From the NCBI GenBank assembly GCA_005888745.1, contig VBBS01000026.1:133424-190326 (forward strand): DNA of 56,903 bases, given 5' to 3'. Numbering within the stretch: the stretch's first letter is position 1; each line of letters begins with the position of its first letter. Under the pieces are notes generated by a model. That model made no database searches and was not told the origin of the DNA. It saw only the letters and a program-made list of their open reading frames with translations. The position numbers and the translations under genes were made by a program. The DNA comes from Candidatus Bathyarchaeota archaeon (GTDB lineage: Archaea > Thermoproteota > Bathyarchaeia > 40CM-2-53-6). Below, piece after piece: positions 22,044 through 24,138 of the stretch.

Positions 22044-22159
22044 CGGTCAGACACATTTCTATGGCTCGGCAAGCTCGAAGGGCCCGCAGTTAAGACCTTT
22101 CGATACCCGGACCTGCTTTTTCCCCTGGTCCCGAATCTCTCGCTTGCCATCTAGAAAGC

Positions 22160-22435
22160 TTAATTCCGCTCTAGAAAAGCGTCGTGCCTGCCCAATCTGC
22201 CGAGCATCCGCAAACCCAACTCAAGTCGTTCAGAGGGTCTTAGTGCTAGAGCATTGCGTTAGTTTTGCCAGGCTCTACTCAATTTAGTGAACGCCATAGA
22301 GATCTATTTGTATGGTCGAAGTTACTCATCTTCCTCTGGTTTGTTTCACAGCAATTCAGACAAGCATCAGAGACTTGCTTCCCACTAACCAAGCGATGAG
22401 AAGCCGCGAGTCTTCAGCGAGCGTAGGCCAATAGA
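22160..22435. other. Spacer between MFS gene and TnpB, left side of the element
   Basis: No gene is seen. The last 35 bases hold CCGCGAGTCTTCAGCGAGCG (22404-22423), which shares CTTCAGCGAG with the hairpin at 23468-23492 beyond tnpB, so this may be the element's left end. Confidence 0.4.
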
Positions 22436-23401
22436 ATGATTCAGACGTTTAAGTTGAAACACGGGAAAGACTTCAGCACTCAGCTACGAAAAGCTCATCA
22501 AGTTGGCAATGTTGCTCTTAAGACTCATACACTCTCTACTGCTGATGTGAAGCAGTTCGGTCTTCCAAGCTATATTGCCCAGGGCGTTCTACGTAAATAT
22601 TCTCGCAACAAGAAACTGAAGCAAGTCAGAAGTGTCAAGCTAACAATCAACAATCCAGCAGGGTTTCGATTTGAGAGTGGAGTTGTCTCTGTCAAGTGTC
22701 TCAGTCTAGCTCTTCCCTGGTATTATCGAAACTTTGAGACTTTGAATCAGATAGAGCTTGATTCTCAGTATGCTTATGTCTCTGTCTCGTTTCCAGATAA
22801 GCCTCAAATTGTTCCTCAGAGTTGGATTGGAGTAGACCGCAATACTACAGGACATGTTGCCGTCGCGGCAAATCCTTCTAACGGCAAAGCTTGGGTCTTT
22901 GGAGTTAGGATTCCACACGTTCATCAGAAGTATCTTGCGCTACGTCGCGAGTTGCAGAAGAAGGGCCACTACAAAGTTGTCAAGAAGATTAAGAATCGTG
23001 AGTCTCGGATTGTTAGAGATCTGACGCATAAGATTTCTCGCTCGATTGTGGAGCTTGCAAAGTCTCAGAATGCTGGTATCAAGCTTGAATGGTTGAAGGG
23101 TATTCGTCAGAGTAGTAGATGGAGAAGCAGTAAGCTTCATTCTTGGAGTCCGTATCGGTTAGAACAACAGCTTCTCTACAAATCAAAGATGGAAGGAATC
23201 CCAATAACCTACGTTGAGGCAAGAAACACGTCTAAGGACTGTTCTCGCTGTGGATGCGTAGGGATTAGAACCGGAAATCTCTTCGAGTGTCAGAACTGCA
23301 GAAGAGTTGGAAATGCGCACGTCAACGGAGCTTTCAACATAGCTCAACGTCGCTCCATTTCCATTCCGACGTTCAAAACGCAGCGTTGGAGGGCACCATG
23401 A
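22436..23401 (+). CDS. tnpB: TnpB RNA-guided nuclease homologue with altered RuvC-III site
   Basis: TnpB proteins use an omega RNA and a RuvC domain to cut DNA at the element's empty site. The 321-residue protein keeps the first acid (D134 in WIGVDRNTTGHVAVA), the second (E218 in IKLEWLKGIR) and the zinc finger (C269, C272, C285, C288). The third motif normally ends HADVNAAFNIA; here it reads GNAHVNGAFNIA, so the aspartate is H295. Family members with one lost acid are usually inactive, so this may be a nuclease-dead repressor type or a decaying gene. It lies 148 bases before a tRNA gene. Confidence 0.88.
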   Translation: MIQTFKLKHGKDFSTQLRKAHQVGNVALKTHTLSTADVKQFGLPSYIAQGVLRKYSRNKKLKQVRSVKLTINNPAGFRFESGVVSVKCLSLALPWYYRNFETLNQIELDSQYAYVSVSFPDKPQIVPQSWIGVDRNTTGHVAVAANPSNGKAWVFGVRIPHVHQKYLALRRELQKKGHYKVVKKIKNRESRIVRDLTHKISRSIVELAKSQNAGIKLEWLKGIRQSSRWRSSKLHSWSPYRLEQQLLYKSKMEGIPITYVEARNTSKDCSRCGCVGIRTGNLFECQNCRRVGNAHVNGAFNIAQRRSISIPTFKTQRWRAP

Positions 23402-23467
23402 TGAAACTGGCTGTGCCTGTGAAGCAACTCTGTGAGGCTCAGAAAGTAGAGCGGAGAGACTTCAGAA

Positions 23468-23492
23468 CTCCCCGATGCTTCAGCGAGGGGAG
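23468..23492 (+). ncRNA. Stem-loop at TnpB right end, candidate omega RNA 3' end
   Basis: CTCCCC (23468-23473) pairs with GGGGAG (23487-23492) around a loop GATGCTTCAGCGA, itself with a small GC..GC pair. Such hairpins near the right end of IS605 elements form the scaffold end of the omega RNA, with the guide beyond. The boundary of the RNA is not determined. Confidence 0.45.
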
Positions 23493-23557
23493 TAAGTCAG
23501 TAAAGTCTTATGAACGGGTTTCAGTTCCACGGGTGATGGCCGAGGAGCCGCCGAGGT

Positions 23558-23582
23558 TGGCCAATTGAAAAGGACCCTCGAA
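23558..23582 (+). other. tRNA-Phe intron 1 (25 nt, between positions 8 and 9)
   Basis: The central helix CGAG (23552-23555) with CTCG (23577-23580) is perfect. Bulges are GTT and AAA, cut GT^T and AA^A. The inner helix is GGCC with GG(A)CC, closing a nine-base loop. Confidence 0.8.
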
Positions 23583-23593
23583 AGCTCAGCCTG

Positions 23594-23617
23594 TTCCTCC
23601 GAGAAGGGGGAGGCGAG
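23594..23617 (+). other. tRNA-Phe intron 2 (24 nt, in the D-loop)
   Basis: The central helix AGCC (23588-23591) with GGCG (23612-23615) has three pairs and one A-G mismatch. Bulges are TGT and AGG, cut TG^T and AG^G. The inner helix is TCCTCC with GGGGGA. An alternative register with GCCT/AGGC and bulges GTT/GAG is fully paired but would leave an 11-nt D-loop. Confidence 0.7.
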
Positions 23618-23636
23618 GGAGAGCACCCGGCTGAAG

Positions 23637-23651
23637 ATGGTAACATCTGAC
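23637..23651 (+). other. tRNA-Phe intron 3 (15 nt, canonical 37/38)
   Basis: Central helix CTGA with TCTG (one U-U mismatch), bulges AGA and ACA cut AG^A and AC^A, inner TG/CA closed by a GTAA tetraloop. The cut falls exactly between positions 37 and 38, the usual archaeal site. Confidence 0.8.
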
Positions 23652-23660
23652 ACCGGGCTG

Positions 23661-23686
23661 ACGGTCTCTTGACGAGACCGGCCCAG
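23661..23686 (+). other. tRNA-Phe intron 4 (26 nt, between positions 46 and 47)
   Basis: Perfect BHB: central GGGC (23655-23658) with GCCC (23681-23684), bulges TGA and AGT cut TG^A and AG^T, and a seven-pair inner helix CGGTCTC/GAGACCG. Removal leaves the variable loop CTGTC. Confidence 0.85.
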
Positions 23687-23716
23687 TCGCAGGTTCAAAT
23701 CCTGCCCTCGGCACCA

Positions 23717-24138
23717 CCAGAAGAACCTCACGATGCCGTATCCAGAACTGTGATCTGCTACTAACACCAGCTAGCGCATTCGAGTGGCCTACTTGTTAGA
23801 GCAGATTCTGTTTTTTTTTCACGCAGAAGAGACTTCTTTCTGTCGAGTCCTCATCCGTATTTTACCAGACTTGCATCTTTTCGTATGACCCTGTCGCTCG
23901 GAATGACTAGTGATACTGGACTCTTTGCGCAGGCACTTGCTAGTGCCATAGACGCATTAGGCCTCGAAACCTTCTCTGCAATCTCAGAACAGGAGCGGGT
24001 TGTTCCGTAGGAAAATGGACTGAAGCTCCTCCGAACGGTATACTAAATCGAGGTTGCTTGAATATTCAATGAAAGATCTTTGAGAAGGACCACATCATCC
24101 CGCATGCCCACAGGCATTAGTCAACCCAATCTCAAAGG
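23717..24138. other. Gap downstream of tRNA, nothing clear
   Basis: This 422-base stretch has only one T-rich run (TTCTGTTTTTTTTTC, 23806-23820), a likely transcription stop for the tRNA, and no convincing gene. Confidence 0.4.

Follow-up and report, generated by a model that had tools for sequence, protein, structure and literature searches.

A tRNA-Phe(GAA) gene with four bulge-helix-bulge (BHB) introns was identified in a Bathyarchaeota-type MAG, which is one intron above the published archaeal maximum that we found, three per tRNA gene in the sections of PMC8450103, PMC4033280, and PMC3293823 considered here. This agrees with the original prediction, made from the sequence alone, which had cited archaeal tRNAs of Thermoproteales with up to three introns and was aware of no four-intron case. 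The gene occupies positions 23550 to 23713 on the plus strand of the window (the whole stretch of DNA analyzed, 56,903 nt), is followed by an encoded CCA, and is interrupted at tRNA positions 8/9, 18/19, 37/38, and 46/47. With a probability of roughly three in four, we read it from sequence comparison as a working, and probably the only, tRNA-Phe(GAA) gene of its genome, in which the 8/9 intron would be a polymorphic addition tied to an insert with a LAGLIDADG-like ORF.

Identification of a tRNA-Phe gene with four introns

Removal of the four introns leaves a complete tRNA of 74 nt plus CCA, with all stems and the anticodon GAA. Two 3-nt bulges and a 4-bp central helix were found at each junction, with one mismatch at two of the four. 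The parts of the gene are listed with the evidence for each in parentheses:

23550..23557, plus strand: exon 1, acceptor 5′ strand and U8 (finder)
23558..23582, plus strand: intron 1 at 8/9, 25 nt, helix 4/4 (found in 4 of the 12 complete genus genes)
23583..23593, plus strand: exon 2, A9 to G18 (finder)
23594..23617, plus strand: intron 2 at 18/19, 24 nt, helix 3/4 (finder and comparison)
23618..23636, plus strand: exon 3, G19 to G37, with the anticodon GAA at 23633-23635 (finder)
23637..23651, plus strand: intron 3 at 37/38, 15 nt, helix 3/4 (finder and comparison)
23652..23660, plus strand: exon 4, A38 to G46 (finder)
23661..23686, plus strand: intron 4 at 46/47, 26 nt, helix 4/4 (finder and comparison)
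23687..23716, plus strand: exon 5, U47 to A73 (23713), and the encoded CCA (finder)

Default searches missed the gene, as had been foreseen: no tRNA was reported in the window by ARAGORN or by Rfam at the gathering score, and the best subthreshold match of RF00005 (18.7 bits versus a cut-off of 29) was in the wrong register, starting at 23612. The gene was recovered by a custom BHB-aware finder, which chains the acceptor, D, anticodon, and T parts of a tRNA and permits BHB introns. Its output started at 23550 and had the anticodon GAA, an encoded CCA, one intron within the D loop, and three others at 8/9, 37/38, and 46/47. The predicted introns of 25, 24, 15, and 26 nt were recovered in this way (the 24-nt intron 2 as part of the second-ranked chain), as was the predicted 77-nt spliced product with its stems paired. 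The helices also followed the original prediction, being full in introns 1 and 4 and having one mismatch each in introns 2 and 3.

The placement of intron 2 required comparison among genes. In the top chain of the window this intron is 22 nt long with a central helix of 4/4, and the second-ranked chain has the 24-nt form at 18/19. The shifted form ranked first in six of the 12 complete genus genes, including that of the window; in the remaining six (G005, G008, G011, G017, G002, and G009) the top chain had a 4/4 helix exactly at 18/19. The 24-nt form at 18/19 is preferred because these six genes combine a perfect helix there with a consensus D loop.

Chance controls were performed with the same finder. 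The real gene scored 69.5, compared with a maximum of 56 when the upstream 220 nt was dinucleotide-shuffled 200 times (177 of the shuffles gave a chain) and a maximum of 64 when the 5′ acceptor strand was kept (n = 200; 198 gave a chain). As the finder is permissive, the main evidence for the gene is comparative.

Two further features were observed at the locus. Positions 23714 to 23719 of the window hold a second CCA directly after the first, and relatives are without the second. A 95-aa frame on the minus strand (23480-23767) overlaps the tRNA and contains the wording GQDLNLR, which we take to be common in false proteins translated from tRNA genes.

Copy number, tRNA set, and splicing machinery of the genome

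A second, normal tRNA-Phe gene had been named as the observation that would speak against the prediction. None was found in the genome, whose assembly (2.2 Mb in 75 contigs) is 93% complete, so that a missed second copy is possible: both the unspliced gene and the spliced 77-mer matched the anticodon arm at the window locus only, and none of the other T-loop places gave a credible GAA tRNA. A simple motif search based on the anticodon arm of tRNA-Phe was discarded as useless for this purpose, with 162 matches versus 96 in the reversed control.

T loops were located at 51 places in this genome, 35 of them with a full T stem, and 30 of those scored at least 55. In these 30 genes 64 introns were counted (about 2 per gene), with four in one gene and three in ten; the sum is nearer 61 if three 9-nt "introns" of leucine-type genes are, as is probable, variable arms. 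Other parses of long-armed tRNAs are uncertain as well, and the count covers genes whose T loop fits the pattern. The Rfam tRNA model gave 13 matches in the same genome. For reference, Pyrobaculum calidifontis, with 71 introns in 46 genes, has the most among the complete genomes assessed in the tRNAscan-SE 2.0 paper, going by the part of it considered here (PMC8450103). Elsewhere in the genome, tRNA-Ser(TGA) was found to have an 8/9 intron as well. In a Glu-like tRNA recognized by eye (L043, ~1340-1560), the 3′ acceptor strand is seemingly interrupted, and sequence closely resembling the 5′ strand occurs upstream.

The host is a Bathyarchaeota-type MAG and does not belong to the Thermoproteales. 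The alpha subunit of its splicing endonuclease had 19 named related loci, mostly of Candidatus Bathyarchaeota archaeon, of which the best was 96% identical over the full length. Scaffold titles give depths in centimeters, which suggests soil. Two paralogues of the endonuclease are present in the genome. The alpha subunit aligns to solved archaeal enzymes (3p1z) and keeps the GPGIDHAPF and VRK segments, with their His and Lys. The beta subunit is without the His segment. The aligned His and Lys are presumably active-site residues, and by its sequence the enzyme fits the two-subunit (alpha-beta)2 type. RtcB is also present, as two pieces of one 1006-aa frame (G000:C2:17455-20262), and we infer that the split is one that an intein would leave.

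Conservation of the gene among relatives

Phe genes were searched for in 61 genomes, including that of the window. Thirteen loci of the genus (again with our own) matched over most of the gene. Twelve are complete and come from different species-level genomes; the other, G004, was left out of that set. Five of the 17 same-genus relatives (G001, G003, G014, G015, and G016) had no Phe match beyond a T-arm stretch, probably because these assemblies are incomplete; G015 has a stated completeness of 95%. Four introns were found in four of the 12 complete genes (the window genome G000, G010, G013, and G011), and three, without the one at 8/9, in the other eight (G005, G006, G007, G008, G012, G017, G002, and G009).

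The exons are nearly identical across the 12 genes, and the introns common to all of them retain their pairing. In the helices of introns 2 to 4, 89.8% of the cells were paired, compared with 30% to 46% when partners were slid by 1 to 3 columns. Twelve cells had changed on both sides, and 0 of 500 shuffles were as high. Counted as pairs, those changed on both sides numbered five, which was reached by 48 of 500 shuffles (one of five measures). The pair count omits intron 1 because, in the alignment, exon 1 of the genes with four introns stands opposite the leaders of those with three.

All four introns can also be recognized by sequence in G004, in which a further insert of ~1.2 kb (L004, ~413-1590) splits the T loop with no BHB at the needed places; this tRNA-Phe may be broken. 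Outside of the genus and within the same family, introns were found at 8/9, 18/19, and 37/38 in G018, whose contig stops within the gene, and four introns were found in G019, at 8/9, 30/31, 46/47, and 59/60 (helices 4/4, 4/4, 3/4, and 4/4); the spliced form of the G019 tRNA has one A53-C61 mismatch in its T stem. The G019 gene (L166, G019:C106 from 5783) lies downstream of an unbroken LAGLIDADG-like frame. The Phe gene was read in five class relatives and has no intron in G040, G052, and G053, one in G042, and three in G059.

An insertion adjoins the 8/9 intron

The original prediction had proposed that related genomes be aligned for intron gain, and this alignment revealed an 8/9 intron that is polymorphic and lies at the edge of an insertion, with both empty and filled sites. 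An insertion was found at all five genus loci with the 8/9 intron, one of them partly readable (G004, in which ~250 bases of the right side were read), and the old promoter survives upstream wherever that region can be read. The three-intron loci have their upstream flank and promoter in common. The insertion point is exact in G013 only: its flank matches that of G006 through the old leader and the acceptor strand to G7, foreign sequence that includes a run of N follows, and homology is back at A9. The acceptor strand forms a direct repeat at both ends of this insert. In G011, from the other subclade, the flank held in common with G017 and G009 ends 12 nt before A9, and homology is likewise back at A9. 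In G010, for which two separate contig pieces were examined, the old 5′ strand is kept to G6; erosion has affected the old 5′ end both there and in the window. In a single-locus tree (15 rows, without G004, G006, and G008), which carries a long-branch warning for G011 above all, filled and empty sites were placed in both subclades. The corresponding features of the window are as follows:

22154..22192, plus strand: orphan left from the old three-intron tRNA-Phe, comprising its promoter and the start of its leader (flank comparison)
22193..22391, plus strand: left part of the older insert, common to G010 and G013
22392..23497, plus strand: TnpB element (approximate limits), replacing most of the LAGLIDADG-like ORF
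23498..23549, plus strand: right edge of the older insert, with the end of the LAGLIDADG-like ORF frame and the new leader (comparison)
23505..23513, plus strand: promoter-like site GTCTTATGA, recognized by eye and common to the four-intron genes
23539..23545, plus strand: leader copy, identical to acceptor nucleotides 1-7 and separated from exon 1 by 4 nt

The end of the insert ORF was detected in five of the 18 genus genomes, and these are exactly the five with an 8/9 intron in the Phe gene. G018 has the 8/9 intron, yet inspection of the 1.5 kb that its contig stretch offers upstream revealed no ORF of this kind; thus, the intron and the ORF are separable, and the intron can persist without the ORF. 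A plasmid search gave no match.

The insert appears to carry a decayed, homing-endonuclease-like ORF of LAGLIDADG-like sequence. Matches of the insert ORF to the LAGLIDADG profile were under the cut-off in G010 (E = 0.043) and G019 (E = 0.0011). The class relatives G131 and G094 exceeded the Pfam LAGLIDADG cut-off, and three other relatives had no LAGLIDADG match. Nothing useful was returned for this ORF from PDB sequences, NCBIfam, or PHROGs. Two motifs of the LAGLIDADG kind were recognized by eye, GIDLGDG and GFQYSDG in G019 and GLDVGDG and GFQYADG in G011. Both G010 and G011 have a disrupted frame, and the first motif of G010 stands in another frame. When the longer G010 piece was compared with 256 class genomes, matches with E < 1e-20 were obtained in G010 (two pieces), G011, G019, and G013, all of them at tRNA-Phe loci; the others, among the matches listed, were weaker than 1e-9 and located elsewhere.

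The TnpB ORF of the window (22436-23401) scored 134.2 bits with the guided_TnpB profile (cut-off 100), and a hairpin was recognized by eye at the right end of the element (23468-23492). These two traits resemble IS200/IS605-type elements with TnpB; the difference is that the element is here a later passenger that replaced most of the LAGLIDADG-like ORF. No TnpB-like frame was present among the frames listed for the inserts of G013 (with its run of N) and G011, and no TnpB was seen in the parts read of the other loci with an 8/9 intron. The element was considered as the bringer of the 8/9 intron and dropped on the basis of the G013 and G011 inserts.

Origin of the fourth intron

The reading that we favor is that the 18/19, 37/38, and 46/47 introns are the standing set of the genus and that the 8/9 intron, found in the genus only beside the segment with the LAGLIDADG-like ORF, was added. 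The segment would have been inserted between positions 7 and 9 of the old gene, as is best seen in G013, and would have severed the old promoter and 5′ strand from the rest. Its right edge would then supply (i) the promoter-like site from which transcription may start; (ii) a new acceptor 5′ strand; and (iii) an intron that, once spliced out, leaves U8 joined to A9. Most of the LAGLIDADG-like ORF of the window would later have been displaced by a TnpB element. We predict that the (alpha-beta)2-type endonuclease excises the four BHB introns from the resulting 164-nt precursor and that RtcB ligates the exons into the 77-nt tRNA with CCA.

It is also possible, though we are inclined to doubt it, that the ancestor of the family already had the 8/9 intron and that the genomes with three introns have lost it, with the LAGLIDADG-like ORF arriving independently. 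Such a history would suit the presence of an 8/9 intron in both G018 and G019, which belong to other genera (the former with no ORF seen upstream), as well as the occurrence of filled and empty sites in both subclades; however, it leaves the coincidence of ORF and intron within the genus unaccounted for (5/5 versus 0/8), and the old promoter and 5′ fragment to the left of the insert indicate that the empty arrangement preceded the filled one. An unlikely carrier is a plasmid or virus acting through its tyrosine recombinase, as proposed for Caldiarchaeum tRNA-Thr, with the LAGLIDADG-like ORF as a passenger. The layout of a tRNA 5′ fragment, an insert, and a tRNA with an extra intron is alike in the two cases (PMC3293823, in the sections considered), and the direct repeat of the acceptor strand in G013 would fit such an event, but no recombinase ORF was found among the long frames listed for the G013 and G011 inserts.

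Two other readings concern what is spliced. At loci of the G013 type, the whole insert might be one large intron that joins the old 5′ strand to A9 and has a near copy of the 5′ strand inside. G013 retains its old acceptor strand in full as far as G7, and this strand would be able to pair with the same intron 3′ end; the arrangement would, however, put an A at position 8 in G013, and it cannot apply to the window, G010, and G011, in which the old strand is broken, so we consider it quite improbable. That the gene is simply broken, its pieces being products of decay or chance pairings rather than spliced introns, is the least credible of these readings. The permissive finder, with acceptor-keeping shuffles reaching 64 versus 69.5, and the split T loop of G004 with no BHB where needed could be taken in its favor, but exons that are near identical and introns 2 to 4 that are conserved with paired changes in 12 genomes argue strongly against it, as does the failure to find another tRNA-Phe in the same genome.

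A more tentative extension of the favored reading, the insertion of a segment beside the 8/9 intron, is that a homing element enters tRNA-Phe at positions 7-9 and mends the damage itself, bringing a promoter, a 5′ strand, and a BHB intron that would hide the cleavage site. The insert, which is patchily distributed among the genomes, may have spread by homing. The same proposal would give the leader copy the part of a stand-in.

A conserved copy of the acceptor strand in the leader

An exact copy of acceptor nucleotides 1-7 was found 3 to 4 nt upstream of exon 1 at all 13 Phe loci of the genus. A similar leader copy precedes exon 1 of tRNA-Cys by 7 to 10 nt in 15 of 16 genus loci, the sixteenth ending at a contig end; this tRNA (L046, L140-L155) has three introns, including one at 8/9, at each of the 15 loci that could be read. 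Because exact matches served to anchor the rows, the copy has an identity of 1.00 by construction, and the informative result is that no readable locus was without a copy. Over the 25 nt upstream, mean identity was 0.36 for Phe genes with three introns, 0.49 for those with four, and 0.45 for Cys. Within the genome of the window, a leader copy within 30 nt was found for 2 of the 30 tRNAs, compared with 5 of 868 cross pairs. The leader copy was also considered as the true exon 1; that assignment places an A at position 8, scored 76.5 versus 81.5, and was dropped.

As a stand-in, the leader copy would pair with the 3′ acceptor strand while the 5′ strand sits in the 8/9 BHB and would yield its place after splicing. 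Such a strand would make sense because the 8/9 BHB occupies the acceptor strand. Counter to this role, the copy is kept in the eight Phe genes without an 8/9 intron, and no exact copy was found for the tRNA-Ser(TGA) of the same genome, which has an 8/9 intron. We know of no description of a conserved leader copy as part of pre-tRNA processing.

Relationship to known systems and significance

Nothing relevant on a four-intron BHB tRNA was found in the open-access literature searched. Like the Thermoproteales (Pyrobaculum and relatives), the present host combines canonical and noncanonical BHB introns per gene with a two-subunit endonuclease; unlike them, with a maximum of three introns, it has a gene with four, within a Bathyarchaeota-type MAG. 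The closest parallel is the tRNA-Thr(GGU) gene of Caldiarchaeum subterraneum, which likewise has an upstream 5′ fragment, an insert, and an extra intron and occurs as alleles with and without them (PMC3293823). The extra intron is at 24/25 in that gene and a plasmid-type recombinase was proposed, whereas the intron described here is at 8/9, a LAGLIDADG-like ORF is involved, and 12 genes were compared. Archaeal rRNA BHB introns with homing endonucleases (PMC4496867 and PMC6125680) share the LAGLIDADG-type ORF, a stable-RNA gene as host, and patchy occupancy; in our case the host is a tRNA, the ORF lies outside of a short intron, and the 5′ end of the gene has been replaced. Among the titles and abstract openings listed for homing endonucleases together with tRNA introns or BHB, no case in an archaeal tRNA was found. 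Three introns per tRNA gene are also described in algae (PMC4090602 and PMC9602550), as in the red alga Cyanidioschyzon merolae (PMC9602550), which differs in being a eukaryote and in having three.

The origin of archaeal tRNA introns is an open question, and its closest model, that of Caldiarchaeum, rests on one population according to the sections considered (PMC3293823). Since a single genus presents one tRNA gene with its site empty, filled, or decayed, the gain of an intron can be dated and a carrier proposed. That the gene was missed by ARAGORN and Rfam bears on tRNA counts across the lineage, and the conserved leader copy offers a testable part of pre-tRNA processing. If the homing proposal is true, the fourth intron of this tRNA-Phe would be the record left by such elements.
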